A stretch of DNA of 57,842 nucleotides, taken from IMG/VR virus record IMGVR_UViG_3300029787_000045, positions 1 through 57,842 of that record; one strand, 5' to 3'. The notes under the pieces were generated by a model. That model was not told where the DNA came from. It made no database searches and was given only the letters and a program-made list of their open reading frames with translations. Each line of letters starts with the position of its first letter. Position 1 is the stretch's first letter. The stretch is from a virus. Shown piece after piece: positions 17,548 through 52,917 of the stretch. The position numbers were made by a program, and so were the translations under genes.

Positions 17548-18405
17548 TCAGGTAGTTACTTCCTCAACGTCAGGCGTCTTAATAACTTTAACCAAGTCTC
17601 TCGTACCATTTGAATACTTAAAAGTACGTATTCCTTTACCTTGGTTAGCATCAGCCCAACACAAACCCTTGTGTCTACAATAAATACAACCAGTAGAAAG
17701 CTTAAGGTTGCCAGACTTCCCATCAGGAATAGCATCATAGCACCTAGAAGGTACGCTACTTCCTTTAACCACTTCTTTAAGGTGTTTAATTCTGTTACTA
17801 GCATTAATCATTTCCATAGAATGAACTGGTGTTAAACAAATCTTACCAGTAGATTTATCTATAACAAGGAAAGCTGCTTGCTCTATACCATTGGCTTGAG
17901 CATAGGCAGAAATCTGTGCTATGTATCCAAAGGGGTCGTCGTCAGCTATTGTATTAGACTCAAACTTTTTAAAGCTGAATCCAGAAGCAGACTTACAATC
18001 AACCAGAACCCCATCAATAATTGCATCTTGATGTCCTAATACTCCTTCTACTGTAACTTCTTTTTGCTGCGACTCTACTGTGTGACCCGCTATAGATGCA
18101 CAGAGTAGTAGAAGTTCTTCAAGAATATATCCATATAGAAACTTAATGCGTGTACTTGGTGGTAACTTTTCTTCTGTTGTTTCTGTATTAATATCATACC
18201 ATAACTGTCTGTCAGGCTTTCCTATTGCAGACAACCTAAGATTTTCACTATCCCTTGGTTTGCTGTACATAAATTCTTTGATGTGTACCTTAAGCATTTC
18301 ACCAAAGTTATTTATAAGATCATCTACTTCTTTCTCATTACGTTTTATAGGTGTGAGATTAAATAACTCATAAATGTCTTCTACTATTGTATTAATATTT
18401 TTCAT
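17548..18405 (-). CDS. PD-(D/E)XK exonuclease, RecB/Cas4-like
   Basis: 285 residues from ATG 18405. The nuclease core is GHQDAIIDGVLVDCKSASG (Asp127, Asp136-x-Lys138), followed by a conserved helix FGYIAQISAYAQ. The C-terminus has CIYCRHKGLCW, three of the four cysteines that bind the Fe-S cluster in Cas4/AddB-type enzymes. The first Cys, expected after a G-x-x-x-R near residue 64, is replaced (GKPDRQLWYD). It corresponds in place to T7 gp6: DNA end resection for recombination or host DNA breakdown. A frame opening 7 codons earlier lies inside a hairpin and is rejected. Confidence 0.8.
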   Translation of the reverse strand: MKNINTIVEDIYELFNLTPIKRNEKEVDDLINNFGEMLKVHIKEFMYSKPRDSENLRLSAIGKPDRQLWYDINTETTEEKLPPSTRIKFLYGYILEELLLLCASIAGHTVESQQKEVTVEGVLGHQDAIIDGVLVDCKSASGFSFKKFESNTIADDDPFGYIAQISAYAQANGIEQAAFLVIDKSTGKICLTPVHSMEMINASNRIKHLKEVVKGSSVPSRCYDAIPDGKSGNLKLSTGCIYCRHKGLCWADANQGKGIRTFKYSNGTRDLVKVIKTPDVEEVTT

Positions 18406-18414
18406 AATAAGATA

Positions 18415-18450
18415 GGGGTGCTGCACTAACTCTTAAAAATGCAGCACCCC
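18415..18450 (-). promoter_or_regulatory. Strong intercistronic hairpin, ssb-exonuclease
   Basis: Perfect 11-bp inverted repeat GGGGTGCTGCA / TGCAGCACCCC with a 14-nt loop, between the ssb stop and the exonuclease start. On the minus strand it is followed by TATCTTATT and then the ATG, so there is no true U-tract. It could be an attenuator, an RNase III-type processing site or a stabiliser of the ssb message. Confidence 0.65.
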
Positions 18451-18458
18451 ATCCTTAC

Positions 18459-18944
18459 TTAGTTACCAAAGGGAATGTCGTCTGATTCAAGATCAGCCAT
18501 TTGAGAAGCAGCATTATTAATATAGCCACCTTCTACAACATCAAAGCCTTCATCTCCATACTCAACTAACTCAACTACTTGAACTGCTGCAAGATCAGCA
18601 GACGTACCTGACTTACCTGCATAGTTCCACTCAAAGGGAAGTGCTTTTACTTTAACCACACTGCCATTCCCAATAAGTTTATTGTCCCAAGGATTGTTTT
18701 GAGAATCCACTACCGTAGGTGCTGGACGTGGACCATTCTTACCCTGTACCTTACGCTTCAACGTGACAAATTCACCACGTTCATCTTCTTTGTTACGTAC
18801 ATTCAGACCTGCACCTTCTACTAAAGCTTTGGTATCTGCATCAAGGCAGATATCTATTTGCCAAGCAGGTTCAAACGTGCTGTTAGGCTCTACAACAGAG
18901 GCCCAATAGCATTTACCAGTTAAATATAGAGGTTGAATAGGCAT
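18459..18944 (-). CDS. Single-stranded DNA-binding protein (T7 gp2.5-like)
   Basis: 161 residues from ATG 18944, which has AAGGAAAA 6 nt upstream. The N-terminal body is OB-fold-like with aromatic beta strands (LYLTGKCYWASV, FEWNYAG). The C-terminus is acidic and ends LESDDIPFGN, the tail with a near-terminal Phe that SSBs use to contact polymerase and helicase. It protects ssDNA and recruits the replisome. It has its own promoter at 19020-19048, which fits the need for large amounts. Confidence 0.85.
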   Translation of the reverse strand: MPIQPLYLTGKCYWASVVEPNSTFEPAWQIDICLDADTKALVEGAGLNVRNKEDERGEFVTLKRKVQGKNGPRPAPTVVDSQNNPWDNKLIGNGSVVKVKALPFEWNYAGKSGTSADLAAVQVVELVEYGDEGFDVVEGGYINNAASQMADLESDDIPFGN

Positions 18945-19019
18945 ATTAGTTTTCCTTGTGTTTAGTGCCACACTATTGCGGCTGTTGATATTGTGTTTGT
19001 CTACTACTACAACTCCATC

Positions 19020-19048
19020 AGTATATACTATCTGATTTAAATTGTCAA
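19020..19048 (-). promoter_or_regulatory. Near-consensus sigma-70 promoter for ssb
   Basis: Minus strand: TTGACA (19048-19043), exactly 17 bp, TATACT (19025-19020). The predicted start is near 19013, leaving a ~70-nt leader before the ssb ATG. It lies just after the DNA polymerase stop codon. It should boost ssb, the exonuclease and ribonucleotide reductase. Confidence 0.8.
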
Positions 19049-19052
19049 CTAC

Positions 19053-20687
19053 TTAATGTGTATCAGCCCATGTTTTTCCAACTTTATAATCACAGTCTAA
19101 TTCACATTTCATCTTAAGTGTCTTTGTTGTCTGTGTCATTGCCTCCTTTGTTAGTCTACAAAATCTTTCTATATCAGGGATAGCTACTTCAAACTGATAC
19201 TCATCATGTATTGAAGCAACTAATCTTACATCCAACTTAGCTTTAATAACTCGTTCCATGATGTGAACAAGCCACTGCTTACATACTATAGCACCAGCAC
19301 CCTGTAGTAAAGTGTTAAGTGCTGCATGTTCTGATCTAATACGTAAAAGCCTACCATCTAAAGCTTTTATTGTACCACCAGCAGATTCTTTACTAACCAG
19401 CATTCTAAGATGTTTAAGGGCTGGCATGTTATTTAAGAACCTAGTTATTAACTGTTGTCCATGCTTGGCTGTACCACCTACTATCTTACCAATCTTGGCT
19501 GCACCTGCACCATAAAGAAACGCATAGATAAAAGTCTTGGCTTGATCTCTAGTTTGTAATCCTGCTGCCTCTTGATTAGCTGTATGTACATCACCTGTTA
19601 ATACAATGTTTGTATATTCAGGATCATTCATGTAGTGTGCCAAGCATCTTAGTTCAAGACCACTGGCGTCAACACCTACCAAACGATATTTAGATGTATC
19701 ATCAACTGTCCATAGTCCTCTACATTCTTTGCCGTAAGGACTATAGACAGCGGGAACTTGTGCCATATTAGGAGATACATGTGCCATTCTTCCTGTTATA
19801 GTACGTAATGTCATTACACTACCACGAACTCGATTATCTTCTTGACATGCCATGATCCAAGACTTTAGTAGGCCAGTACGTTTCTGCAATAAAAAATATC
19901 TATTAAACATCTTAGCTTCTGGCATGTCAATCTTAGATAAAACTTCTTCATTAATAATCACATTACCTTTGTCAGTAAACTGTGTAGGTTTCCAGCCTTT
20001 TGCCTGTAACCTATCAGCAATTTGTTTACGACTTGCTATATTGAAGGGTATGTATTTAGTTTTAGTCTTTAGTATTACTTCAGTTGGTTCAAAATCTTCT
20101 TCTGCCTTACGCTCCAGTGTAGATAATTCATCTTGCAACTTAGCCTGTAAGATCATAGCTTCTTTTATTTTAAAAGAAAAGCCATTCTTCTGTTGCTTAT
20201 CTATGATAGCCCTGACTTTACCCTCTAGCTCGTAAGCTTTAGGATTGAACGATTTACCTTCTACCTCTAACTTTTTTGCTACAAGCCGTGTTACTTCTGT
20301 GTCACGTTTACAATACTCTAACATTTCAGGTGAGTAGTGTGCAAAATCATGGAAGTCACCTTTCTCAAAGACAAGGGTCTTACCCCAAGCTTCAAGCGAA
20401 TGACCACCATCACGTATAGGATTATATAACTGTGACTCAATGAGAGTATCACGTATCTGACTAAGCTTTATGTTACATCCAAGCAAACGATTCAGGACAG
20501 GAGCATCGAAGCTGATACCATTGTGCATAATAAAGGTATCAATTTGCTGCGACCAACTAGCAAACTCCGAACACTCCTGCCCTACCCACGTCTTAACCTT
20601 ATTAGTTTCATAACTCCTTGCTACAATACAGTGTATCTTTTTTGCATTTAAACTATCAGTTTCAATATCAACTATAGCTGTTGTCAT
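19053..20687 (-). CDS. DNA polymerase, family A (T7 gp5-like)
   Basis: 544 residues. 3'-5' exonuclease motifs: DIETD (7-11), MHNGISFDAP (Asn56, Asp61) and YCKRDTEV. Polymerase motifs: VDASGLELR (A), RDQAKTFIYAFLYGAG (B, almost the T7 sequence, with the Tyr that accepts dideoxynucleotides) and SIHDEYQFEV (C). It is shorter than T7 gp5 (704), so the thumb/thioredoxin-binding region is reduced; whether host thioredoxin is used is open. No 5'-3' exonuclease domain. The ATG overlaps the stop of the upstream nuclease. Confidence 0.95.
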   Translation of the reverse strand: MTTAIVDIETDSLNAKKIHCIVARSYETNKVKTWVGQECSEFASWSQQIDTFIMHNGISFDAPVLNRLLGCNIKLSQIRDTLIESQLYNPIRDGGHSLEAWGKTLVFEKGDFHDFAHYSPEMLEYCKRDTEVTRLVAKKLEVEGKSFNPKAYELEGKVRAIIDKQQKNGFSFKIKEAMILQAKLQDELSTLERKAEEDFEPTEVILKTKTKYIPFNIASRKQIADRLQAKGWKPTQFTDKGNVIINEEVLSKIDMPEAKMFNRYFLLQKRTGLLKSWIMACQEDNRVRGSVMTLRTITGRMAHVSPNMAQVPAVYSPYGKECRGLWTVDDTSKYRLVGVDASGLELRCLAHYMNDPEYTNIVLTGDVHTANQEAAGLQTRDQAKTFIYAFLYGAGAAKIGKIVGGTAKHGQQLITRFLNNMPALKHLRMLVSKESAGGTIKALDGRLLRIRSEHAALNTLLQGAGAIVCKQWLVHIMERVIKAKLDVRLVASIHDEYQFEVAIPDIERFCRLTKEAMTQTTKTLKMKCELDCDYKVGKTWADTH

Positions 20688-21148
20688 TATACTTTAATGA
20701 GACAAGCATCCTCCACTGGTATATGAAAGAACTTCTCACCCTCTTTGATGTTTCTATTAGATACTTCTTTTACTTCGCAGTCAAGTAAAATATTTGCGTC
20801 AATATGCCATGCTTGTTTGCAATCGTTACGCCACACTATAAATGTAAAGAGTGCATTGGGATATTCTTTTTTCCACTTAAGTAACAAGCGGTTCTTTCGG
20901 TAAGGGATACGTACTTCTTTCCAACTAGGGTTCCACTCGCCTTTCCAAGAATACTTAACCTCTACTTCATAAAGATGATGAACATTTTCTGTAGCTTTGC
21001 AGATAATATCAAAGTCTTTCCTTTCTGTAGTATCAATAGTTGTATAGTTCATATCTTTAATATACTTCAGAGTAGCTTTCTTGGCGTCTCTATCAGCTAT
21101 TTGATACAAAGCTCTGTCAAATTGTTTACGTTTACCCACATCACTCAT
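20687..21148 (-). CDS. PD-(D/E)XK-like endonuclease (Holliday-junction or recombination type)
   Basis: 153 residues from ATG 21148 (AAAGGA 7 nt upstream). DFDIICKA followed by YEVEVKYSWKG gives D-x(n)-E-V-K, the catalytic spacing of this fold. Lys/Arg/Trp-rich stretches (RIPYRKNRLLLKWKKE) suggest nucleic-acid binding. It lies between helicase and polymerase, where T7 keeps its resolvase (gp3) in the same region. Function by fold and position only. The longer upstream frame would run through a hairpin and into the primase-helicase. Confidence 0.6.
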   Translation of the reverse strand: MSDVGKRKQFDRALYQIADRDAKKATLKYIKDMNYTTIDTTERKDFDIICKATENVHHLYEVEVKYSWKGEWNPSWKEVRIPYRKNRLLLKWKKEYPNALFTFIVWRNDCKQAWHIDANILLDCEVKEVSNRNIKEGEKFFHIPVEDACLIKV

Positions 21149-21172
21149 TTTATTTTCCTTTAATGTTGTGAA

Positions 21173-21208
21173 GTAAACCCTCGCCTCAGAGAGGCGGCGA
21201 GGGTTTAC
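21173..21208 (-). promoter_or_regulatory. Strong intercistronic hairpin, helicase-nuclease
   Basis: GTAAACCCTC + GCCTC, loop AGA, GAGGC + (GGC bulge) + GAGGGTTTAC: 15 paired bases between the primase-helicase stop (21216) and the nuclease start (21148). No U-tract follows; AAAGGA and an ATG come next. It belongs to the series of hairpins ahead of ribosome binding sites in the leftward operon. Confidence 0.7.
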
Positions 21209-21215
21209 TGATATT

Positions 21216-22850
21216 TTATCTTTCATTTTCTGCAAAAGGATTATCAATCTGTGACATCCTACCAGTATTTTTATCATAGTGCAAGTAGCAAGCAACACCA
21301 GTGTCACCAGTGTACCTATTCTTTAAGATACGTATGGTAGTAGTGTTGGCTGCTTGTTCGTCGTCTGCCTGTTGGTTACGCTCCAGCGCAATTACTGCGT
21401 CAGATAAGTGTGCAATACTGGCAGACCCACGTAGATGTGATAGGGATACCTCACGTCCATCCTCATGCCCACGATCACCACTTGGCCTACGTAGGTGACT
21501 CACAAGCAGCAAGCCTATGTTTGTTTCTTCAACTAGAGAACGTAACTTAGTCATTAGAATATCAATTGACTTACGTTCATCACCGTTGTCTTCTTGACCT
21601 GATACCAAGATAGATAGATGATCAAGAATAATCCACTTGGTTTCTAGTGCCTTTGCCATGTAACGAACACGGCCTAAAATTTCATCGTTGCTTATAGAAC
21701 CAAAGTGATCAAAGGCAAAGAACCTACCACTGCCTATAGTTTTATCTTGCCACTCACGTAGTTGTTCTTTGGTATACTGATCACGTACTTCTTTGATATA
21801 GAGCCTAGCATTGGCTTCCACTGACATGATATTGAAAGCTGTATTTCGTATGCTTTCTTCCATTGCCAAAATACCAATGTTATCTTTGGTGTTCATTAAC
21901 AAGTGGTGCATTAGCTCACGCATGATGCTGGACTTACCCATACCAGCACCACTGGTAAACGTCACTAACTCACCCGTCCTCATGCCATAAGTCTTCTCAT
22001 TCATCTGTGTCCAAGGGTAGAGACAAGTCTCACAATATTTTTCATCGTATAGACTATCTCCTAAATCATGAAGGTTGACAATGCCAGCAGGAGTAAAGGG
22101 TTTAGCACCCCACCATGCAGTCATAAACTCTTCTGACTTACCTACCTTGAGATATTCGTTAGCATCCTTCAAGTCTAGGTTCATAACCTTACACTTATTA
22201 GGCTCAAAGATTTCAGCTACATCAGCAGCCGCTTGCTTGCCAGCCTTGTCGTTGTCAAAGCATAAAACTACCTGATCAAACTGATTAAGGTACTCAAAAG
22301 ATTGCTTACAATTAGCTACAGCAGATTGCGCCCCATTCTTTAGGGAAACACAAGGCCACTTTGATCCCATCATTTGATAGGCAGACATAGCATCTACTTC
22401 GCCTTCACAAATGGTAATGAACTTACCCTTTTGAGTAAATACATTCTGACCAAACAATCCGGCACTGGTCATTGTCCCTTCAGACCAGAACTTTTTGTTG
22501 GCTGTGTCACGTACCTTATTACAGATATGATTACCATTCGTATCATAATACTGATAGACATGGTGTGTTATCATGGCCCCCTTCTTTTTTATGAGAGTGC
22601 CATACTTCTTAGCCGTATCTCTAAGAATCTTTCTATCTGAAATATCACTATAGTCAGCCATCTTGCTGTATGTTAATTCAGTGTATATTTGTTGTATCGG
22701 TGATTGAGTAGCCATAGAATTGACTTCCTTTGAGTGTTGATAAGTTTTACAGCTAAAGCAGTAGGTATGTCCATCAGGGTAGTGATGATTAGCGTCAGAA
22801 GAATTACAGTTAGGGCATGGCCCTTTTCTTCCTTTTTCTTCGGGTTGCAT
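21216..22850 (-). CDS. Bifunctional DNA primase-helicase (T7 gp4-like)
   Basis: 544 residues from ATG 22850 (AAAGGAT ahead). Zinc-binding primase head CPNC...CFSC (Cys12, 15, 31, 34), then TOPRIM motifs ICEGEVDAMS and CFDNDKAGKQAA, then a RecA/DnaB-type helicase with Walker A SGAGMGKSS, WIILDHLSILV (Walker B, with the H4-like region) and LLLVSHLRRP. It unwinds DNA and makes primers at the fork with the polymerase at 19053. Length and order match T7 gp4 (566 aa). A start 11 codons upstream is possible but has a poor ribosome site. Confidence 0.95.
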   Translation of the reverse strand: MQPEEKGRKGPCPNCNSSDANHHYPDGHTYCFSCKTYQHSKEVNSMATQSPIQQIYTELTYSKMADYSDISDRKILRDTAKKYGTLIKKKGAMITHHVYQYYDTNGNHICNKVRDTANKKFWSEGTMTSAGLFGQNVFTQKGKFITICEGEVDAMSAYQMMGSKWPCVSLKNGAQSAVANCKQSFEYLNQFDQVVLCFDNDKAGKQAAADVAEIFEPNKCKVMNLDLKDANEYLKVGKSEEFMTAWWGAKPFTPAGIVNLHDLGDSLYDEKYCETCLYPWTQMNEKTYGMRTGELVTFTSGAGMGKSSIMRELMHHLLMNTKDNIGILAMEESIRNTAFNIMSVEANARLYIKEVRDQYTKEQLREWQDKTIGSGRFFAFDHFGSISNDEILGRVRYMAKALETKWIILDHLSILVSGQEDNGDERKSIDILMTKLRSLVEETNIGLLLVSHLRRPSGDRGHEDGREVSLSHLRGSASIAHLSDAVIALERNQQADDEQAANTTTIRILKNRYTGDTGVACYLHYDKNTGRMSQIDNPFAENER

Positions 22851-22998
22851 TGGGGTATCCTTTTGCAATTGAATAGGTCTCATGGTCTTTTAGTTTTAAG
22901 ACATAGCATAATTGTTGCCTGTTATCCAACTCTTTCTGTGCTTCATATTTAGTCCTATAACTCTTTATAATTTTATTCTTATATAATATATTATACAT
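22810..22998 (-). CDS. Small basic protein, unknown
   Basis: 62 residues from ATG 22998 (MYNILYKNKIIKSYRTKY), ending RRKRKKRAMP. It overlaps the primase-helicase start by 41 nt, and its own start overlaps the gene upstream. Basic and likely nucleic-acid contacting; no family recognised. Confidence 0.5.
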   Translation of the reverse strand: MYNILYKNKIIKSYRTKYEAQKELDNRQQLCYVLKLKDHETYSIAKGYPNATRRKRKKRAMP

Positions 22999-23176
22999 CT
23001 TCAAAAGTTTCTTTCCAAAGATTTATAACAAAGTCTTCTTTATCTTCCATGATTTCGTTAAGCTCAATCTTAGCTAAGTGGCGAGCTTCTTTAAGATCAT
23101 AGCCTTCTTCTTTATACTGTCGAACAAGGTTCCTCAGTATAGCTGATTTTTCTTTCTGCCAAAAATTCTTACTCAT
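22991..23176 (-). CDS. Small helical protein, unknown
   Basis: 61 residues (MSKNFWQKEKSAILRNLVRQ...), charged and helical. The start overlaps the stop of the preceding small ORF (23169-23339) by 8 nt; the end overlaps the next start by 8 nt. Part of a run of short coupled early genes. Confidence 0.55.
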   Translation of the reverse strand: MSKNFWQKEKSAILRNLVRQYKEEGYDLKEARHLAKIELNEIMEDKEDFVINLWKETFEDV

Positions 23177-23339
23177 CTAGTATATCTTTTAAAAACTCTT
23201 CTACGTCTTCTCTATTTGTAGGTTCATACCCATTATCTAACATAGTGTACCATAAATCAGCAGGATAACCAAGAGATTTTCTTAAATACTCTTGCTTCTT
23301 TTTCCAATGACTATAAAAATTATGTATCTCTGCCGTCAT
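23169..23339 (-). CDS. Small protein, unknown
   Basis: 56 residues starting MTAEIHNFYSHWKKKQEYL and ending EEFLKDILDE. It fills the only gap between two accepted small genes, overlapping one at each end (8 and 20 nt). Helical, acidic C-terminus. Below usual length cutoffs but well supported by the tiling. Confidence 0.5.
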   Translation of the reverse strand: MTAEIHNFYSHWKKKQEYLRKSLGYPADLWYTMLDNGYEPTNREDVEEFLKDILDE

Positions 23340-23529
23340 TTAACTCAGCCCATAACTTATTTGGGGCATTATCCTTCTTTGCAATAGACAATTCTTTTCT
23401 AAGTTGTTTATTAGCATCAGTCAACTCCCTTACTTGTAATTTTAATGTAGCTATATTTTTATGTAATACAGCTACATATCCATTATATTCGTCAGTGAAC
23501 TCTGTCAATTTTAATAAATCCTTCTTCAA
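23320..23529 (-). CDS. Small coiled-coil protein, unknown
   Basis: Up to 69 residues. The frame opens with TTG 23529 and has no ATG; a TTG at 23508 preceded by GAAGGATTTATTAAAA is an alternative start. The middle has heptad character (IATLKLQVRELTDANKQLRK). Overlaps neighbours at both ends. The start is uncertain. Confidence 0.45.
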   Translation of the reverse strand: MKKDLLKLTEFTDEYNGYVAVLHKNIATLKLQVRELTDANKQLRKELSIAKKDNAPNKLWAELNDGRDT

Positions 23530-23692
23530 ATACTACACTATCATCAATTCCTAGAGAGTGTAGAAATTCTATAGCTTCTTTTTCAGTATTAAATTTAAGA
23601 GGAATACCATTAGGTGAGGTTAATAGATCAAAGCAATCAAAATTTTTTGAATTTAGATATTCCTCTAGAATATTTTGAACTATAACATACAT
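23492..23692 (-). CDS. Small protein, unknown
   Basis: 66 residues (MYVIVQNILEEYLNSK...), mixed alpha/beta composition, in the early small-gene run. No recognised motif. Confidence 0.5.
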   Translation of the reverse strand: MYVIVQNILEEYLNSKNFDCFDLLTSPNGIPLKFNTEKEAIEFLHSLGIDDSVVFEEGFIKIDRVH

Positions 23693-23698
23693 ACTAAC

Positions 23699-23893
23699 TT
23701 AAGACTTCCGTTTATTTTTAAATTTTCTGTATGTAGTTACATCATTTTCAAACCAACTAATTTCTTTTTCAATTTCTGTACGTGCTTCGATAAGAAACTC
23801 TAACTTTTTTTCTAGTTGAAGAAGATTATAATCAGGGCTACCTACTAAAGTTGGGTTGCCCCTTATTTTTTTAATCGCCTGAACGCTAATCAT
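23699..23893 (-). CDS. Small helical protein, unknown
   Basis: 64 residues; a likely helix LLQLEKKLEFLIEARTEIEK and a basic end FKNKRKS. The ATG overlaps the end of the cupin gene by 8 nt, so it is coupled to it. Confidence 0.5.
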   Translation of the reverse strand: MISVQAIKKIRGNPTLVGSPDYNLLQLEKKLEFLIEARTEIEKEISWFENDVTTYRKFKNKRKS

Positions 23894-24302
23894 CTTTACC
23901 TCTTTTATTTACTCCAAAAATATCGCCAATGGTTTCAGGGAATAGATCATATTCTTTAGACATCCCACCTACAATATCTCTTTTAATATCATTGAGTGAT
24001 AACTCAGACCAATAAACTTCTAGTGCTTTAGTATCACGTTTAGCCTTAAACATATGATATTCTCCCGCAGGAACTATCGCTACGTCTTCCGCATATAAAA
24101 CTGTAACATCTACTAAGTCATAGTCTTTCCACCTATGTATTTCTAACTCACCGTCCTCCACATAGAAAGCATTTATCTTTGACTGATGACAATGCTTAGA
24201 GCAATACCCACCAGCATTAACAAAGATAGAATGCAATTCTATTTGAGGGCGTTGAATGAGGGGGATTGTTGTTCCCCACACCTTTCCTTCTATTATACTC
24301 AT
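23886..24302 (-). CDS. Cupin-fold protein
   Basis: 138 residues. ELHSIFVNAGGYCSKHCHQS, then INAFYVEDGELEI, then AEDVAIVPAGEYHMF are the two cupin beta-barrel motifs, with likely metal ligands at the HxH pair, a Glu/Tyr and the later His. Similar small cupins are annotated as sugar-isomerase-like, but substrate cannot be read from sequence. It lies among early genes, so a host-metabolism or regulatory role is possible. Its start overlaps the preceding gene's stop. Confidence 0.7.
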   Translation of the reverse strand: MSIIEGKVWGTTIPLIQRPQIELHSIFVNAGGYCSKHCHQSKINAFYVEDGELEIHRWKDYDLVDVTVLYAEDVAIVPAGEYHMFKAKRDTKALEVYWSELSLNDIKRDIVGGMSKEYDLFPETIGDIFGVNKRGKDD

Positions 24303-24469
24303 TTACTTTGACTCAACTCTTCATTCATGTTTAAGAAACTATTAATATCTGTTAAACTTACTTCTGAAATACTTTTTGATTTAATACCAGAAGCTTCTAA
24401 AACAGATAGAATATAATCTTCTAAGTCTTCTGGTATGTGGTTGTGATTAGTGTAGTTAAAAAAGTACAT
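24299..24469 (-). CDS. Small protein, unknown
   Basis: 56 residues from ATG 24469, chosen because AAGGAATGTAAAG precedes it. Sequence MYFFNYTNHNHIPEDL...; acidic, helical. A GAAGC-loop-GCTTC hairpin lies just upstream (24491-24504). Confidence 0.5.
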   Translation of the reverse strand: MYFFNYTNHNHIPEDLEDYILSVLEASGIKSKSISEVSLTDINSFLNMNEELSQSK

Positions 24470-24528
24470 CTTTACATTCCTTATCATATAGAAGCAAGTG
24501 CTTCCTATTATACCATACAATTATATTA

Positions 24529-24580
24529 CCTACAATAGTTAGTCAAATAATATTTTTAACACCATAACTATTATAGTAGG
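24529..24580 (-). promoter_or_regulatory. Imperfect intercistronic hairpin
   Basis: CCTACAATAGTTA (24529-24541) pairs with TAACTATTATAGTAGG (24565-24580), 13 bp with a 3-nt bulge, in the 131-nt gap between the DUF932 gene and the next cistron. AT-rich loop of 23 nt. Confidence 0.5.
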
Positions 24581-24600
24581 AATTATAATAAACTCTAACA

Positions 24601-25533
24601 TTATACAGCCTCTAACTCTAACCAAGTAGGTGACACCAACATTTTCTTTACAGCTTCCTCACGCAATACCCTCTTTTGATGACCCTTAGTATGTTGGTAA
24701 GGTTTGCTAGAAAAAGAAGAACCTACGTGAGTAGACCACGCAGTAGCAGCCTGATATGCTGTCCATAGTGAACCCTTCATTTGTGTACCGTACTTCTCAT
24801 AGAGACCCCTACCATGTACGTGACGGTTCTCATTGTCAAACGTCTTCATGAGGTTAGACAACATAACTTTGTTAGCCACGTTCTTACGCTTGACATTATC
24901 AAATCGCTTTGCTAATGTCTTGGTAAACAAATCAATTGCATTGTCTCTGCTAAGTTCAGTATTGTACCATTTCTTCATTTGTGTCAGGCCATCACCAGAA
25001 ATGTACTCAGATGCCGCCTTGATCTTGGCACCAAATGTCACAGCATCAAAGCCTTTAGTGTGCCTACCGTATACATAGGCCAGCTTATCACCAGTGACTA
25101 AGGTGTTAAAACAGAACGCTCTGAACAAGCCCATCATGCCATTGTTAGCCCATGTCCTGTTATGGCTAGTACGAAAGACAAACTGTGGTATTACAGGGCC
25201 AGTTCCATCTATGTCCTGTGCATGAGCAGGAAACTTGGCAACCAGCTCCATCCTTGCACCATTGTCATAAGTATTGGTGGTAAATTCAGCATCAGTCAGG
25301 TCTAACCCTGCTAGATTGAGTGCTTCTTCAATCTGATCTACGATAGTAAGATACTGTGTAGGCTCATAACTATCTGACACAATAGCCAGTGGTTCCAGAG
25401 TATCTACACGACGCAGACCTACCCCAATCTCTGTAGGTACTTTAGTTAAGGTGCTAGGGTTATATAGCCCAGAGTAGGGTGTATACAGTGGGAACTTCTC
25501 TACTTGAAAGTTTAGTTTATCATGGTCAAACAT
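24601..25533 (-). CDS. DUF932 family protein
   Basis: 310 residues from ATG 25533; GGAG lies 7 nt upstream, whereas the ATG two codons earlier is too close to it. The order PTEIGVGLR, then ILxDxY-like IVSDSYEPTQY near residue 50, ARMELVAKFP, and NSHNR-like TSHNRTWANNGMM with RAFCFNTL matches DUF932, phage/plasmid proteins of unknown function often made early and in quantity. The ATG lies just inside the stop of the upstream 55-residue ORF. Confidence 0.8.
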   Translation of the reverse strand: MFDHDKLNFQVEKFPLYTPYSGLYNPSTLTKVPTEIGVGLRRVDTLEPLAIVSDSYEPTQYLTIVDQIEEALNLAGLDLTDAEFTTNTYDNGARMELVAKFPAHAQDIDGTGPVIPQFVFRTSHNRTWANNGMMGLFRAFCFNTLVTGDKLAYVYGRHTKGFDAVTFGAKIKAASEYISGDGLTQMKKWYNTELSRDNAIDLFTKTLAKRFDNVKRKNVANKVMLSNLMKTFDNENRHVHGRGLYEKYGTQMKGSLWTAYQAATAWSTHVGSSFSSKPYQHTKGHQKRVLREEAVKKMLVSPTWLELEAV

Positions 25534-25535
25534 AT

Positions 25536-25703
25536 TCATTCTCCAATTTTTAAGGTAATAGGTGCATCTTTATCATGAAAGCATTCTAGTGTAAATTTCT
25601 CTCCTTTAGTTGTTGTTACTTCTACATCTATTGTTCCAAATGTTTTCATATCTATTTTAGATATAACAATATTACTTACGTTGTGTATTGTACCTCTTTT
25701 CAT
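25536..25703 (-). CDS. Small beta-rich protein, unknown
   Basis: 55 residues (MKRGTIHNVSNIVISK... to ...APITLKIGE); alternating beta-strand pattern. AAGGG precedes a double ATG (25706/25703). Its final codons contain the GGAG ribosome site of the DUF932 gene. Below the usual size cutoff. Confidence 0.5.
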   Translation of the reverse strand: MKRGTIHNVSNIVISKIDMKTFGTIDVEVTTTKGEKFTLECFHDKDAPITLKIGE

Positions 25704-25720
25704 CATCTTCCCTTTCAGTG

Positions 25721-25918
25721 TTACACCAGTGTTATACTAAGAGTATTCGAGTAGTCTTTTGTCACTTCATCTATAGTATCATAATGATAATTTTTTTCAT
25801 AGTATTCCTTCTCGCCTGTTCCTTCACATTCATGGCATTTATATGGTATAGTATTATAACCGTATAATTCACCTTGTCCATTACAATCTTCACATTGTTG
25901 TACAATAATCCAAGTCAT
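25721..25918 (-). CDS. Small DnaJ-type zinc-finger protein
   Basis: 65 residues with two CxxCxGxG units: CEDCNGQG (9-16) and CHECEGTG (28-35). This is half a DnaJ Cys-rich domain, enough to hold one zinc ion. There is no J domain. May bind unfolded protein or nucleic acid. ATGA overlap with the upstream 45-residue ORF. Confidence 0.65.
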   Translation of the reverse strand: MTWIIVQQCEDCNGQGELYGYNTIPYKCHECEGTGEKEYYEKNYHYDTIDEVTKDYSNTLSITLV

Positions 25919-26052
25919 TTCATTTCCTTATATGTTTTCATAGCTATATCTGTAGCTGCATGTTTAGCTTCACCTTCACTCATGCCATTAGCTATTAATT
26001 CATCAAAGGCTTCTTCCCAGAATTGTAAGAGTATTTCTTCATTCAACAACAT
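25915..26052 (-). CDS. Small helical protein, unknown
   Basis: 45 residues (MLLNEEILLQFWEEAFDELI...), amphipathic and acidic. AGAGAGGAT lies about 10 nt upstream, and it overlaps the zinc-finger gene by 4 nt. It is the first gene after the hairpin repeat at 26093-26148. Confidence 0.45.
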   Translation of the reverse strand: MLLNEEILLQFWEEAFDELIANGMSEGEAKHAATDIAMKTYKEMK

Positions 26053-26092
26053 GGTTTAAATTATCCTCTCTAATTTCTTCCTTTGGAATAAA

Positions 26093-26148
26093 GTATTGAA
26101 GCAATCCCTCGCTTCGCAGAAGTGAGTGAGGGATTGCTGGTGGTTGAT
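26093..26148 (-). repeat. 56-bp hairpin repeat, copy 1
   Basis: Stem AGCAATCCCTC (26100-26110) / GAGGGATTGCT (26128-26138), 11 bp, with an inner CTTC-GCA-GAAG hairpin. The 56-bp block matches 29585-29640 at 55 of 56 positions (c/t at the inner loop). Located in the leader of a leftward gene set. Confidence 0.8.
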
Positions 26149-26161
26149 CACGCTGTCTTCT

Positions 26162-26410
26162 TTAACTCGATTTGGAATAGTGTGTATGATCGTTAATAAA
26201 CTCAATGAGTTCTTTTGCATCATTTAGTCCTATCACTTTTCCAATAATTCCTTTAGAATTTCCTTCTTCATCTACGTTAATCATAGCTGCCTCAATAGAA
26301 CCTTTTTCTCTAATACCTGATACTCCTAAATTATTTTTCTCATGAATAGAAACTTGAATTAAAGATATGTAAATATTATCTCTTAATTTTATCCTAATTC
26401 CACTTGACAT
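26162..26410 (-). CDS. Hypothetical protein
   Basis: 82 residues (MSSGIRIKLRDNIYISLIQV...), beta-rich first half and one helix at the end. AAAGGTAAC precedes the ATG. No family recognised. The 56-bp hairpin repeat lies just downstream. Confidence 0.5.
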   Translation of the reverse strand: MSSGIRIKLRDNIYISLIQVSIHEKNNLGVSGIREKGSIEAAMINVDEEGNSKGIIGKVIGLNDAKELIEFINDHTHYSKSS

Positions 26411-26415
26411 TTTAG

Positions 26416-26742
26416 TTACCTTTCTAAGGCTGCAATTAATCTAGTCTTGACTTGATGTTCATAGGGTATTTCTTCTGGCTTTTCATTAAAAGCTACTGAT
26501 TTATCATATGGTTCATCTGTTCTTTTTTTTCTCCTACTTATAGAATTTCTATGTTCTGAACTAGGTTTACATAATCCGGCTCTATTTTTAATACCTATCA
26601 CAGAGTTTCTAGTAAGTAAATTATGTAAATGACCTCTTAACTTTTTGTTTGCTTCTTGAGCTACTTGTGAAGAACTCAACCCATCTTTAAAGAGACTAAG
26701 TACTACTGTTTTAGTTATTTCAGTATGAGTATGAATAGCCAT
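26416..26742 (-). CDS. GcrA-like helix-turn-helix regulator
   Basis: 108 residues. DGLSSSQVAQEANKKL (20-35), then LTRNSVIGIKNRAGL (43-57) matches the N-terminal DNA-binding part of GcrA (GLSxSQIAxxL...TRNAVIGKVxRLGL), the sigma-70-linked cell-cycle activator of Alphaproteobacteria. The rest is basic and does not show the C-terminal sigma-binding domain clearly. It could redirect host transcription at GANTC-dependent promoters. The host GcrA similarity is the main clue to an alphaproteobacterial host. Its start overlaps the preceding ORF's stop. Confidence 0.65.
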   Translation of the reverse strand: MAIHTHTEITKTVVLSLFKDGLSSSQVAQEANKKLRGHLHNLLTRNSVIGIKNRAGLCKPSSEHRNSISRRKKRTDEPYDKSVAFNEKPEEIPYEHQVKTRLIAALER

Positions 26743-26894
26743 CAGTCTTCTCTTTCTATGCCTATGGTTTCAGTCAGCATACGCACTTCTCCTACTTTCA
26801 TATCGTGAAATTTCTTTTTAACTTCATCTTCCTGCCTTCTGGCAAAATAGTAGTCTGTTAATTTAGAGTCAAAAAGTAAAAATGATTTCCTCAT
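26742..26894 (-). CDS. Small charged protein, unknown
   Basis: 50 residues (MRKSFLLFDSKLTDYYFARR...). GGAG lies ~9 nt before the ATG; it overlaps the HhH gene by 4 nt and the GcrA-like gene by 1 nt. The tiling supports it despite its size. Confidence 0.5.
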   Translation of the reverse strand: MRKSFLLFDSKLTDYYFARRQEDEVKKKFHDMKVGEVRMLTETIGIERED

Positions 26895-27502
26895 TTTGCA
26901 ATACTCCTAAAAGTTGAAATTGGTAGAATACACTTCACATGGAAAGTGGATACTTGTTCCACATCTTGAAAACTTTTTGGATATAAATCCGCTAGAAATT
27001 CGCACCAACTATCCCAAAGGTATTCGCATCCCCCTAATTCTTCACAGGTTTTCAAATACAACTCAGCTTTTCTTAAAGCTGTATCGTATTTTAATTTCTT
27101 AGAAAGTTTAAAAGTATGAGGTGATAATCCGAACCTTCTAAGGTTATGACTATCTAAACAACCTACTTCACCAACGCATAGTTGTAATACAAAACCAGCT
27201 TTGGGTAGTCCTATGCCGGGAATAGAAGCTACGTTTAAAAGTTTAATTTCTAATGGCATATTAGGATCATGAATATCTTCATATAGTTTTTTCTTATTCT
27301 TGGCAGAATAGGTTAGCGTATCAGCTTTAGATCCCCAAGCATATTTGCTTTCAATACCTTCTTTCAGAAAAGAGTTATAAATTTTATCTGCGGTGCTAAA
27401 GTGTTGTTGAATTGTAGCACTAACAAACCATATTACTTTCATGGTGTTTGTTGGACTTTTTTCTGCCCATTTCTGGATTATTGGCTGATGATCTTTGAAC
27501 AT
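26891..27502 (-). CDS. Helix-hairpin-helix DNA glycosylase-like protein
   Basis: 203 residues. VASIPGIGLPKAGFVLQL is a classic HhH (L-PG-[IV]G-x-K-A), followed by CLDSHNLRRFG, matching the V-D-T-H-x-x-R block that carries the catalytic Asp of HhH-GPD glycosylases (Nth/MutY family). The Fe-S cysteine cluster of Nth is absent. May remove or nick modified bases in host or phage DNA, or only bind DNA. GGAGAAGTAGA precedes the start. Confidence 0.6.
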   Translation of the reverse strand: MFKDHQPIIQKWAEKSPTNTMKVIWFVSATIQQHFSTADKIYNSFLKEGIESKYAWGSKADTLTYSAKNKKKLYEDIHDPNMPLEIKLLNVASIPGIGLPKAGFVLQLCVGEVGCLDSHNLRRFGLSPHTFKLSKKLKYDTALRKAELYLKTCEELGGCEYLWDSWCEFLADLYPKSFQDVEQVSTFHVKCILPISTFRSIAK

Positions 27503-27756
27503 TCTACTTCTCCTATTTCTGTTACGTTTATGCCTGTCAGATGTTCGTGTGTATTGTATGCCTTTAAGTGTGCGGCCTCTTCATCTTCTGCATACACTAC
27601 CACACTATCAGGATAAAATATCCCAATGGCACCGATTTTACGGCCTTGTCTCCACTCTACTCTATATTTTTTCATTTTATTTACCTCATCAAACATTGTT
27701 ACTTGTTTCATTAGCTTTAGTTCCTTTAGTTTAGTTCGGTTACTGACTGCCATCAT
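27478..27756 (-). CDS. Hypothetical protein
   Basis: 92 residues if the start is ATG 27756 (GGAGACAAAG upstream). An alternative ATG 27675 (GAGGTAAATAAA upstream) would leave only the compact beta-rich part MKKYRVEWRQGRKIGA... The end overlaps the HhH gene by 25 nt. No family recognised. Confidence 0.5.
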   Translation of the reverse strand: MMAVSNRTKLKELKLMKQVTMFDEVNKMKKYRVEWRQGRKIGAIGIFYPDSVVVYAEDEEAAHLKAYNTHEHLTGINVTEIGEVECSKIISQ

Positions 27757-27955
27757 CTTTGTCTCCGACCTCATTCCTTACTTCGTTGCAATCGTTATAG
27801 GTTGCAACATAACCAAATTGATTATACAGATCAACGCCGTTCGTACCGACGCTAGGATACACAATAAGTTTACCGTTACATCGAATATCAAGCTCCGCTT
27901 GTAGATATTCAATTGCTAGTTGATCTTCTGGAATTACTACCAAATATTCAGTCAT
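27740..27955 (-). CDS. Hypothetical protein
   Basis: 71 residues (MTEYLVVIPEDQLAIEYLQA...), mixed alpha/beta. Overlaps neighbours at both ends (8 and 17 nt), so it is part of a coupled run. Confidence 0.5.
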   Translation of the reverse strand: MTEYLVVIPEDQLAIEYLQAELDIRCNGKLIVYPSVGTNGVDLYNQFGYVATYNDCNEVRNEVGDKDDGSQ

Positions 27956-28754
27956 TAGAACCTCGCTCTATTTCATACATGTGTTGTTCAATATCAGAAC
28001 GTAAACGTAGTTCATTAAACTTATGAGGATAACTACATAAGTTTTTGATAAACTTATCGTAACTAAAACACTTAGACTTCCTAGTAGCATTCATTAATAC
28101 TTCTTGAAATACTTGTCTTTTTACTGTGCTTTTTTGTAGCGGTGGGTTATGTGCAGCACAGTAAACTTCTTCAAACATAGGAAGATATTTATCTAATCTC
28201 CTTTTAATTTTAGTATCAAATTGTAGCTTACCATCTTTAAAAGATTTGTTACCACCTTTTTCTATATCTCTACGGTATCTTCCTCTATGCACTGATCTAT
28301 TATTATTCCAAATCATTAAAATAATACTATCAGTAGTATACTTACCATAGTATTTTTTATAGTCTAAGTATATATTATATACTTCAGAAGTCTCAGGAAC
28401 ACTAGACCAGTACTTAGCATAGTTCTGTAAAACCCAATTCTTCATTTGTGTATTAAGTTTAATCATTAGATGTTCATCAGTTGATTTATCTATAATACAA
28501 TACCTTGTTAAATTTTCTCTAATAGCAGCTTCATTTCTATGTTGTCCATCTATAATCTTATATATTATGACACCCTTAACATTTACTTTACGTACAATAA
28601 TAGGATTAATATGTAATAGATTTGATTCTTTTAAAGAATTTTGTAAATCTTTTACTTTAGCCTCAGTTAAAGGCCTGTTCTTATAATAATGTTCAAACTT
28701 CACATCAGAATTAACTTTATATATTTTATTTACTTCTGTTAAACCTTTAAACAT
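27948..28754 (-). CDS. ParB-like nuclease/NTPase-domain protein
   Basis: 268 residues from ATG 28754 (GGAG 6 nt upstream). The N-terminus has the ParB/sulfiredoxin core: PLTEAKVKDLQNSLKES, then NPIIVRK, then YKIIDGQHRNEAA. In this family GQHR-type motifs bind CTP/ATP or act as a nuclease; free-standing phage versions are common and mostly uncharacterised. The rest is basic and helical, with no ParB HTH. Early position suggests DNA binding or host takeover. Confidence 0.7.
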   Translation of the reverse strand: MFKGLTEVNKIYKVNSDVKFEHYYKNRPLTEAKVKDLQNSLKESNLLHINPIIVRKVNVKGVIIYKIIDGQHRNEAAIRENLTRYCIIDKSTDEHLMIKLNTQMKNWVLQNYAKYWSSVPETSEVYNIYLDYKKYYGKYTTDSIILMIWNNNRSVHRGRYRRDIEKGGNKSFKDGKLQFDTKIKRRLDKYLPMFEEVYCAAHNPPLQKSTVKRQVFQEVLMNATRKSKCFSYDKFIKNLCSYPHKFNELRLRSDIEQHMYEIERGSND

Positions 28755-28905
28755 CACACTCTCCATCAATTGTAAAACATGGGTTAGGCTTACAAGTATT
28801 TGCAGCCCATTGTCGCATCACTTCATCATACTTTTCTTTAGTATTAAAAGCAGATAACATAAACTCTTTAAACTCTTTATCATAGGTCACATGATTAATA
28901 GTCAT
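28747..28905 (-). CDS. Small protein, unknown
   Basis: 52 residues (MTINHVTYDKEFKEFMLS... ending PCFTIDGECDV). GAGG is 9 nt upstream of the ATG. It overlaps the ParB-like gene by 8 nt. Two C-terminal cysteines. Confidence 0.5.
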   Translation of the reverse strand: MTINHVTYDKEFKEFMLSAFNTKEKYDEVMRQWAANTCKPNPCFTIDGECDV

Positions 28906-28918
28906 ATCATTTACCTCA

Positions 28919-29080
28919 TCAAGCTGCGATGTAATCTAAGTAGAGCAAACTAGCCACTACTGCAATAGCGCCTTTACATACTAATAGTATAGATATAGCA
29001 ATATCAAATGACAGTAGTGTGCCGCTGATTATTAAGAATATTCCTATCAATATTCCGAAAATTGTTGCTGCTATTTTCAT
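28919..29080 (-). CDS. Small two-TM membrane protein
   Basis: 53 residues from ATG 29080 (AAGGA 7 nt upstream). Nearly all hydrophobic: residues 2-24 and 28-50 as two membrane segments. Made early in infection by position; could affect the host membrane or block superinfection. Follows the nested hairpin at 29105-29150. Confidence 0.5.
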   Translation of the reverse strand: MKIAATIFGILIGIFLIISGTLLSFDIAISILLVCKGAIAVVASLLYLDYIAA

Positions 29081-29104
29081 TAGATTTTCCTTCAGTTTTA
29101 AGGG

Positions 29105-29150
29105 AGAGTGAGTACCTGAGAAGCATAGCTTCGTTACAGGCACTCACTCT
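29105..29150 (-). promoter_or_regulatory. Nested intercistronic hairpin
   Basis: Three stacked stems: AGAGTGAGT / ACTCACTCT (29105-29113, 29142-29150), CCTG / CAGG, and GAAGC / GCTTC around an ATA loop. It lies just upstream of the ribosome site of the two-TM protein gene. Confidence 0.65.
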
Positions 29151-29175
29151 GAGTTATCTGAGTATAGAATTACAC

Positions 29176-29538
29176 TCAGAAGGGAGCTTCATTAGAAATT
29201 GGTGTTTCGGCTGCACTACCTATAGTTTTATCTGAAGACTTGGATGGAGTATAATCATTAGAGTAATTACGATCACCAACTATGACAAGCTTATCCATAT
29301 TTTTCAAAGGAAAGTCAGAGGGTAATGATCTAATACCTTCAGTCATCATGCACTCATGACCTAAAAGAATATCACTATCTTTCAGGTAATAGAACTTAGC
29401 AATGGCGTATCCCTTGGATACAGCATCAGCATAGTTAGCTTTGTTCTGTAAGGTACTTTTACCTTGTGGTGAATCAATCCACTCAGTACCATTATAAAAT
29501 CTCCATACAGTAGTTGTCATAGCATTTACAAAAGACAT
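29176..29538 (-). CDS. Hypothetical early protein
   Basis: 120 residues from ATG 29538 (AAAGGAG upstream). Beginning MSFVNAMTTTVWRFYNGTEW; Ser/Thr-rich C-terminus ends SNEAPF. The 56-bp hairpin repeat copy 2 lies 47 nt before its start. No family recognised. Confidence 0.55.
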   Translation of the reverse strand: MSFVNAMTTTVWRFYNGTEWIDSPQGKSTLQNKANYADAVSKGYAIAKFYYLKDSDILLGHECMMTEGIRSLPSDFPLKNMDKLVIVGDRNYSNDYTPSKSSDKTIGSAAETPISNEAPF

Positions 29539-29584
29539 ATCATGTCTCCTTTCGTAGGCTGCTGTCATCCCCCAGCAGCTTGGG

Positions 29585-29640
29585 GTATTGAAGCAATCCC
29601 TCGCTTCGTAGAAGTGAGTGAGGGATTGCTGGTGGTTGAT
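29585..29640 (-). repeat. 56-bp hairpin repeat, copy 2
   Basis: Near-identical to 26093-26148 (one c/t difference). Stem AGCAATCCCTC (29592-29602) / GAGGGATTGCT (29620-29630), with the CTTC-GTA-GAAG inner hairpin. In the 110-nt gap between the first and second leftward genes. Confidence 0.8.
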
Positions 29641-29648
29641 GAAGAATC

Positions 29649-29996
29649 TCAGACTTTTTCGATAAGACTGGCTGCATCTTTAACAACAGGACAGTCTCTC
29701 ATGAATGCAGCAAGCTCATCTGTAAGACCAGCTGAGCGTCTAAAACCAGTGCGAGGTGGTTTGTTTCCTGGTATTCCACGTAAATTCTTAGGACAATGGA
29801 ATGAAGAATTTGAATGGAGAACTCTAACCCAAAGACCATAGCGCTTGGCTTTGGCAAGAGAAGCTTTAAATAAAGGCTCATTCCTTTCAGAACTTGGCAT
29901 CATGTCAACCCACACGTCACCTTCAGGAAAAGTCTCAGCAACCTTTGGAAAGATCGCTATCATGTCAGAAGGAATGTAAACCTGAAAAGTACTCAT
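29649..29996 (-). CDS. Hypothetical protein, first gene of the leftward operon
   Basis: 115 residues (MSTFQVYIPSDMIAIFPKVA...). TAGGAG lies 8 nt upstream. It faces the divergent control region and is likely the first gene expressed. No family recognised. Confidence 0.55.
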   Translation of the reverse strand: MSTFQVYIPSDMIAIFPKVAETFPEGDVWVDMMPSSERNEPLFKASLAKAKRYGLWVRVLHSNSSFHCPKNLRGIPGNKPPRTGFRRSAGLTDELAAFMRDCPVVKDAASLIEKV

Positions 29997-30016
29997 AACT
30001 CAATCTCCTATGTTAA

Positions 30017-30054
30017 GTTTTTTTCGTAGAACCGCAGGTTCTTCTACGAAAAAC
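30017..30054 (-). promoter_or_regulatory. Hairpin in the leader of the first leftward gene
   Basis: T-rich arm ending CGTAGAA (30017-30031) pairs with TTCTACGAAAAAC (30042-30054), with inner AACC-GCA-GGTT. It lies just ahead of the TAGGAG ribosome site of the 29649-29996 gene, like the other hairpins of this operon. Confidence 0.6.
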
Positions 30055-39803: not shown

Positions 39804-39850
39804 TAAGAGAGGTAGTGTATAGGGTGAAATCACCTAAACTACCTCTCTTA
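39804..39850 (+). terminator. Hairpin after the capsid gene
   Basis: Perfect 13-bp stem TAAGAGAGGTAGT (39804-39816) / ACTACCTCTCTTA (39838-39850) enclosing AGG-GTGA / CACCT. No T-run follows, so it is likely a partial terminator or 3' stabiliser that keeps MCP mRNA above downstream genes. Confidence 0.65.
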
Positions 39851-51837: not shown

Positions 51838-52917
51838 ATGGCAAGCACGTATACAACAAATCTAAGACTCACAAAGCAAGGAGACGGTGAGAACCCTAAT
51901 AGTTGGGGGCAAATCCTTAATGATGGAGTTATTAGTCTTGCTGATGAAGCCATTGCTGGTTATACTACTATATCAATTGGTAGTGCAGCAACTATTAATT
52001 TAACAGCAAATGATGGTGCTGATGATCAAGCACGTTCTGCTTTCTTAGAAGTTAAGGGATCAGTAGGAACTGCTGCTACTTCTATTTTTATAGTTATTCC
52101 TAATAAAACTAAATCATATGCTGTTCTTAATAAAGTATCAGCAAATAGTGATAGTAATGTAGTAATGATGCGAGTTGCTGGTAATACTGGTGTAACACTA
52201 AGTAGATCATCAACTCAGTTTCAACATGTAGTTTGTGATGGAACTTCTGTATATAATGTAGATCAATCAGAAAGTACATTTAGTACGTTAGAAGTAACGG
52301 GAGCAGCTACTTTTGATTCAACTGTAACCGTTTCTGGTGCTGCTACATTTAAAAATAATGTATCAGTAAGTGGTAATGTAGTTGCAGCAGAATTTTATGG
52401 TGGAGGCTCTAATCTAACGGGAATAGTTACAATTCCCACTGGTGCTATACTTCCGTATGCAGGAGGGAGTGCGCCAAGTGGTCATCTATTGTGTTATGGT
52501 CAAGCTATAAGTCGTTCTACTTATAGTGACTTATTTTCAGCAATTGGAACAACGTATGGCGTAGGTGATGGCTCATCTACTTTTAATATACCTGATTTAC
52601 GTGGTCGTGTAGTTGCTGGTCAGGATGATATGGGTGGTTCAAGTGCCAATCGTCTAACAGATCAGTCAGGTGGTGTTAATGGTGATGTATTAGGTGATAC
52701 AGGTGGTGCTGAAACACATACACTAACAGTTTCTGAACTAGCAGCACATACTCATAGTACGTATGAATTATGGAATCAACATGCAGGAAATCCTCAAAGC
52801 CCTCCTCCTTATGAGGTTCAAAATAATACTGGCGGTACTACTGGAAGTGCTGGTGGAGATTCTGCACATAATAACGTACAGCCTACAATTATTCTTAACT
52901 ATATTATTAAGACTTAA
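51838..52917 (+). CDS. Tail fibre/collar protein
   Basis: 359 residues. N-terminal YTTNLRLTKQGDGENPNSWG anchors to the virion; residues ~155-190 hold the repeat TVSGAATFKNNVSVSGNV also present in the long fibre at 46435, and FYGGGSNLTGI; the C-terminus GAILPYAGGSAPSGHLLCYG and DLRGRVVAGQDDMGGSSANR is a phage tail collar domain. The GGAG ribosome site is good. A short fibre or receptor-binding variant. Confidence 0.85.
   Translation: MASTYTTNLRLTKQGDGENPNSWGQILNDGVISLADEAIAGYTTISIGSAATINLTANDGADDQARSAFLEVKGSVGTAATSIFIVIPNKTKSYAVLNKVSANSDSNVVMMRVAGNTGVTLSRSSTQFQHVVCDGTSVYNVDQSESTFSTLEVTGAATFDSTVTVSGAATFKNNVSVSGNVVAAEFYGGGSNLTGIVTIPTGAILPYAGGSAPSGHLLCYGQAISRSTYSDLFSAIGTTYGVGDGSSTFNIPDLRGRVVAGQDDMGGSSANRLTDQSGGVNGDVLGDTGGAETHTLTVSELAAHTHSTYELWNQHAGNPQSPPPYEVQNNTGGTTGSAGGDSAHNNVQPTIILNYIIKT

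Follow-up and report, generated by a model that had tools for sequence, protein, structure and literature searches.

Two kinds of RNA hairpin in the early operon of an uncultured marine phage: a putative split ribosome-binding site and candidate mRNA boundary elements

Hairpins of the leftward operon

We examined the hairpins that lie between the genes of the leftward operon in a 57,842-base IMG/VR virus record (IMGVR_UViG_3300029787_000045), whose whole length is referred to here as the window and which carries 101-nucleotide (nt) repeats at its ends. The leftward half contains early and replication genes, coding for a helicase, a DNA polymerase, a Gp2.5-like single-stranded DNA-binding protein (ssb), a Cas4-domain exonuclease and a ribonucleotide reductase. 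The analysis of the window and its relatives showed that this operon does contain a set of RNA hairpins preceding ribosome sites, under selection at the RNA level. We consider it fairly probable that the set comprises two RNA devices: class A, at the ssb-exonuclease junction, which would bridge a Shine-Dalgarno (SD) sequence to its AUG, and class B, at five other sites, which would act as mRNA boundary elements (Table 1). The carriers of these hairpins are uncultured marine podovirus-like phages.

The leftward half (positions 8400-30524) was scanned on the minus, transcribed strand, with dinucleotide shuffles as controls. Seven hairpins at or below -16 kcal/mol were observed, as compared to a shuffled mean of 0.4 (maximum 2), and six at or below -19 kcal/mol, as compared to a shuffled mean of 0.1. 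A first-pass annotation of this DNA, which had claimed seven strong stems, had proposed a comparison of this kind as a check, and six of its stems are indeed present on the minus strand and stand out from shuffled sequence. Five of the six hairpins at or below -19 kcal/mol are sites of that annotation; the sixth, at 19705, lies inside the polymerase gene. This hairpin (19705-19751), with -26 kcal/mol, equals the intergenic ones in strength. The remaining stem of the annotation, at 24529, is weak: 7 of 200 shuffles fold equally well, and it adjoins an extended -10 promoter-like sequence (TGGTATAAT).

The same annotation had treated all seven sites as one family, each hairpin being followed by an SD and an ATG rather than by a U-tract. 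This order was found at the class B sites, but at 18415 the SD precedes the stem, and a single family for all seven sites was rejected because the position of the SD differs. Two kinds are present instead: the hairpin at 18415 has the anatomy of a split ribosome-binding site, a bulged architecture is common to five others, and the dyad at 24529 falls outside both. Rfam searches at the gathering threshold gave no match in the window or in seven relatives, and at a relaxed threshold the matches were at chance level only; the intercistronic hairpins have no catalogued RNA counterpart in Rfam.

Table 1. Positions, strand and folding of the hairpins and associated features of the leftward operon (fold z, z-score of the folding energy relative to shuffled sequence; bp, base pairs; aa, amino acids).
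Feature	Position	Strand	Fold z	Remarks
Cas4-domain exonuclease gene	17548..18405	-		phrog_1990, E=6e-43; ATG at 18405, nine nt past the hairpin
Class A hairpin separating SD and start codon, 13 bp stem; putative split ribosome-binding site	18415..18450	-	-6.6	Sequence, folding, relatives
SD TAAGGA of the exonuclease gene	18452..18457	-		Sequence; directly after the ssb stop, 5' of the hairpin
Gp2.5-like single-stranded DNA-binding protein gene (ssb), upstream cistron of the exonuclease	18459..18971	-		phrog_112, E=4e-13
Class B hairpin, gap between helicase and 153-aa genes	21172..21209	-	-6.1	SD AAGGA 21156-21160, ATG 21148; near-identical hairpin in relative L167
Weak AT-rich dyad, member of neither class	24529..24577	-	-2.2 (marginal)	
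Class B hairpin, 5-nt 5' bulge, UGC triloop	26100..26138	-	-2.9	Copy 1 of a 56-nt unit, 26093-26148
Class B hairpin, 14 bp, 4-nt 5' bulge, 5 bp, UAU loop	29105..29150	-	-5.8	Precedes the 53-aa gene that starts at 29080
Class B hairpin, UAC triloop	29592..29630	-	-3.6	Copy 2 of the 56-nt unit, 29585-29640; also in relatives L292 and L092
Class B-like hairpin, leader of the first leftward gene (ATG 29996)	30020..30053	-	-2.7 (weaker, still significant)	Best window match to the UUAC-family covariance model

The ssb-exonuclease junction

In mRNA order, the junction consists of the ssb stop codon, TAAGGA, one base, the 36-nt hairpin, nine bases and the ATG of the exonuclease gene. The SD lies 46 nt from the AUG in linear sequence and 10 nt from it when the hairpin is looped out. 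The spacer between stem and ATG (TATCTTATT) lacks the U-tract of an intrinsic terminator.

The conservation of this layout was analyzed in ssb-exonuclease junctions drawn from relatives that had been found via the polymerase, the exonuclease or an upstream gene. The full set comprises 100 distinct junctions, of which 99 were measured; the most distant exonucleases in it are about 53 percent identical. The layout is, in essence, kept in all 100. A Watson-Crick stem of 6 bp or more is present in 99, and the remaining junction shows, by eye, a shorter stem interrupted by G-U. Of the 99 relatives, 88 have an SD-like motif 5' of the stem and none has one 3' of it (0/99). The distance from stem to ATG is 9.5 ± 2.6 nt (99 relatives), and the hairpins are 15-62 nt long. 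Between SD and AUG, the relatives have 47 ± 8 nt in linear sequence and a median of 11 nt when the hairpin is accommodated. In a first set of 53 distinct junctions the mean fold z was -4.1, with 49 of 53 below -2. The correlation between the SD-stem and stem-ATG distances, expected if their sum were fixed, was uninformative, the stem ends being unstable.

The sequence of the stem is free to change, as its 5' arms represent 67 different 8-mers. Interruptions of the inner stem were counted only where they are flanked by Watson-Crick pairs, because a first count was confounded by the purine-rich SD facing a T-rich spacer. This count gave 45 G-U as compared to 1 A-C, in agreement with selection on the coding-strand RNA. 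A scan for the layout over 9,773 candidate starts in the relatives returned 80 distinct sequences, nearly all with the N-terminus of the exonuclease, and within the window the layout occurs at the exonuclease gene only. The layout therefore belongs to one gene and is no habit of the genome.

The junction thus displays a conserved anatomy, selection at the RNA level and specificity for one gene. It also shows the sequence features expected of a split ribosome-binding site of the T4 gene 25/38 type: the SD is too far away in linear sequence, none is present at normal distance, and a stable hairpin would restore normal spacing. With the folded hairpin looped out, the SD would come within about 10 nt of the AUG, and this shortened spacing would allow the 30S subunit to initiate on the exonuclease AUG. 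We infer that the ribosome accommodates the hairpin, and class A is most probably a case of hairpin-bridged initiation.

Some observations weigh against this reading. A clear SD motif, by the pattern used, is missing in 11 of 99 relatives. The exonuclease follows ssb in 159 of 160 cases, so that synteny cannot separate the hairpin from the end of ssb. Moreover, although no window site has a U-tract, as the first-pass annotation had stated, TTTTT follows the stem in 46 of 99 relatives of the 18415 site, which is terminator-like. Together with the GC-rich stem, these T-runs in the spacer could indicate an intrinsic terminator that lowers exonuclease expression, the start codon following by chance. 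We regard this as quite unlikely: 37 of 99 junctions, the window among them, have no run of four T, and a terminator leaves unexplained the SD 5' of the stem, the missing 3' SD and the fixed distance of 7-14 nt to the ATG. As a general account of class A it was rejected on these grounds.

The best-documented split ribosome-binding sites are, to our knowledge, those of T4 genes 25 and 38, and the gene 25 site is conserved only among close T-even phages. Here the layout stayed fixed for one gene, although the exonuclease drifted to about 53 percent identity and the stems were exchanged by compensation. The class A junctions are therefore a large natural data set on how the ribosome handles a hairpin between SD and AUG. 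In T4, too, SD and AUG are too far apart and an intervening hairpin gives 5-11 nt (from 27 to 11 nt for gene 25 and from 22 to 5 nt for gene 38), an arrangement kept by related phages (PMC3014915). Class A differs in that its gene is a Cas4-like exonuclease placed after ssb in uncultured marine podovirus-like phages, in its longer hairpin (36 nt in the window), and in a stem sequence freely exchanged across the 100 distinct junctions. Judged by its sequence, class A would be the known T4-type device in another gene and phage group.

Six relatives have an enlarged class A loop of about 40 nt (L058 5484-5558, L066 12560-12626, L068 6682-6748, L071 10952-11026, L073 4440-4519 and L077 3711-3783), with the conserved core GAGTTCYGGC..AAAACC..GTAATCAGC..GGTCTC. 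Within these loops CUG/CAG and CCG/CGG appear to covary, which suggests a possible pseudoknot between SD and AUG. No Rfam match was found for the enlarged loops.

Bulged hairpins in the early-gene gaps

The five class B hairpins of the window consist of a lower stem of 10-14 bp, a bulge of 3-5 nt on the 5' side and an upper stem of 4-5 bp, with about 14-19 bp in all. They end in a C-G closed triloop that begins with U, and the SD lies 3' of the hairpin. The class B descriptor (lower stem, 5' bulge, short upper stem, C-U..G loop, location between cistrons before an SD) was defined on these five hairpins; their agreement with it is circular, while its use on the relatives is independent. The two copies of the 56-nt unit at 26093 and 29585 are identical at 55 of 56 positions. 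The counterpart of the 29105 hairpin in L093 differs by pair-preserving changes only.

The relatives carry an oriented, multicopy hairpin family with a 5-nt bulge and a UUAC loop. Among their C-G closed tetraloops in class B geometry, UUAC accounted for 46 of 150 on the coding strand; on the opposite strand (109 tetraloops) it was not among the 25 commonest loops. When the side of the bulge was left free, the C-U..G closure was found in 39 of 78 cases for 5' bulges on the coding strand, as compared to 6/91, 3/56 and 0/113 for the other combinations. In most complete-size contigs with matches, all copies, up to nine per contig, lie on one strand and in one region.

All copies of a 21-nt apex in 2.9 million viral contigs were collected, giving 50 distinct loci in which the outer stem had not been selected. 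The seven pairs beyond the apex were Watson-Crick in 338 of 350 cells as compared to 162 expected, and all four pair types occur at one position of the outer stem. Covariation was 0.556 as compared to 0.150 in shuffled data (0 of 500 shuffles reached the observed value), and at most 0.133 when slid. The first-pass annotation had named stems not conserved by compensatory change as the outcome that would speak against it; compensatory change turned out to be strong. The lower stem measures 18-20 bp in 41 of 50 loci. At the apex the bulge and the UUAC/UAAC loop are invariant, and the stem is free to vary. Selection on class B RNA is well supported in the relatives. One exact 21-nt apex was absent from the 84,980 bacterial and archaeal genomes scanned (GTDB), and blastn of one 55-nt element against cultured phages gave nothing relevant.

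The duplication of the 56-nt unit, and the feet TAATTAA common to the relatives' hairpins, could point to DNA elements such as mobile palindromes or recombination or replication sites. This is very improbable, since the strand of the hairpins follows transcription, G-U is favoured over A-C, and the hairpins are placed at gene ends; the strand bias and the G-U bias together ruled out DNA-level palindromes.

In the relatives, the median distance of the class B hairpin from the upstream stop codon is 10 nt, and the next start lies 26 nt past the hairpin. In some relatives (L078, L129) the UUAC element comes after the polymerase stop and is followed by a promoter-like sequence and then ssb. Such a position speaks for a function at the 3' end of the preceding cistron. 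Promoters downstream of class B hairpins were slightly more frequent than expected (6 as compared to 2.2), a weak excess. TTTT follows the stem in only 2 of 126 cases, and terminators were rejected for class B because the T-run is absent. Orientation, covariation in the relatives, placement at stop codons and absence of U-tracts are thus observed features of class B. Most likely, these hairpins set mRNA ends by processing or protection, where we infer both the nuclease or protein and the effect on the mRNA. Stem-loops in the gaps between early cistrons would serve as mRNA boundary elements: after transcription a nuclease would cleave them, or they would be shielded from it, or a protein would bind the bulged apex, and in this way every early cistron would acquire a stable end of its own.

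Three points concerning the window weigh against this account. The UUAC apex motif (5-nt 5' bulge, C-UUAC-G) has no match in the window, where the UUAC-family covariance model scores the 30020 hairpin alone, and marginally (16.1 bits, E 0.03). The window stems are also shorter than those of the relatives. Finally, the unity of the window set and the relatives' family would rest on a shared architecture that was defined after the window set had been seen.

The first-pass annotation had compared the hairpins to the RNase III sites of T7, and a processing or stabilising role of that kind is plausible for the five class B sites, because they lie between cistrons, directly at stop codons, have no U-tract and show, in the relatives, a tight stem length. 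More specifically, the host enzyme would cut the stem and release single-cistron mRNAs with hairpin-protected ends; no RNase III gene was found in the window, and therefore the host enzyme would have to do the cutting. The T7 early-region signals (R1.1 and others) likewise lie between cistrons of early polycistronic mRNA, without a U-tract and with an asymmetric internal loop, which in R1.1 is of 4/5 nt within a 60-nt RNA (PMC6121014). The relatives' lower stem is close to two helical turns, the helix length that goes with an asymmetric internal loop in such sites; the window stems, with about 14-19 bp in all, are shorter than those of the relatives. Class B differs from the T7 signals also in its bulge on the 5' side only (3-5 as compared to 0-1 nt), its short upper stem and the loop that is invariant in the relatives. 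That constant apex goes beyond the known needs of RNase III, for which we know of no requirement for an invariant apical motif. We consider RNase III sites of the T7 kind a plausible, though somewhat unlikely, candidate.

The constancy of bulge and loop predicts that a specific reader exists, in phages where the scans run gave no phage RNA polymerase. Such a reader could be a phage or host RNA-binding protein, an N/boxB-like antiterminator or a translational repressor, recognizing the bulge and the GNRA-like UNAC loop while the stem varies freely. Loops of the UMAC type are known from the boxB RNAs of certain phages, phi21 among them (PMC12550061), and boxB of lambda-type nut sites shares with class B the GNRA-like UNAC apical loop in early phage RNA. 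Unlike boxB, class B has a 5-nt bulge, a 19-bp lower stem and many copies per contig, and it is located after stop codons, sometimes ahead of a promoter, which is not the case for nut sites. A boxA-like motif is absent upstream (2 of 71 relatives' hairpins as compared to 1.0 in shuffled sequence), and a candidate protein was not found. A protein site of this type appears rather unlikely. The phage RNA polymerase had been declared missing by the first-pass annotation; this fits the profile scans of large open reading frames (ORFs), which gave no match, the direct family search having been unusable because its control was silent.

Compared by description, class B also resembles the extended start-associated sequences (ESAS) of cluster K mycobacteriophages, which are dispersed just upstream of gene starts, many per genome and in one orientation. 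ESAS are 17-bp inverted repeats with a 4-13 bp spacer, of unknown mechanism (PMC3203893). Their repeat has a consensus per subcluster, whereas class B has a constant apex and a mid-stem that changes by compensation.

With less than even confidence, we tentatively propose that an uncultured marine phage family marks its early-gene gaps with a fixed-length, bulged, UNAC-capped hairpin dedicated to this use and read by a trans-acting factor that partitions the polycistronic mRNA, and that these genomes also use a hairpin-bridged ribosome site as the standard start of one replication gene.

Two further structures adjoin the window hairpins. In the 29997-30050 leader, the sequence CGATCTC precedes the hairpin and is able to pair with the SD region GGAGATTG; this pairing is kept in L292 and L092. 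At 29558-29579 a second hairpin (GCTGCTG/CAGCAGC, G-rich loop) lies between a class B hairpin and the gene 29176-29538; its counterparts in L098 and L101 show compensating changes and are placed upstream of the same gene.

Genome setting and other features

Of 50,697 phage records, none matched the window closely at the DNA level, and its DNA polymerase is 47 percent identical to those of pelagiphages HTVC103P/104P. The ORF at 206-5353 (1715 aa) had no Pfam match at E 0.01. The gap that separates the polymerase gene from ssb contains a promoter-like sequence, TTGACA-17-TATACT, at 19020-19048. The rightward (structural) operon has a strong plus-strand hairpin (39804-39850) that directly precedes the SD and start of the ORF at 39870. 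A 779-aa structural protein contains repeats with a 36-nt period (46800-48250), and a related copy is found at 52300-52390 in the gene 51838-52917.

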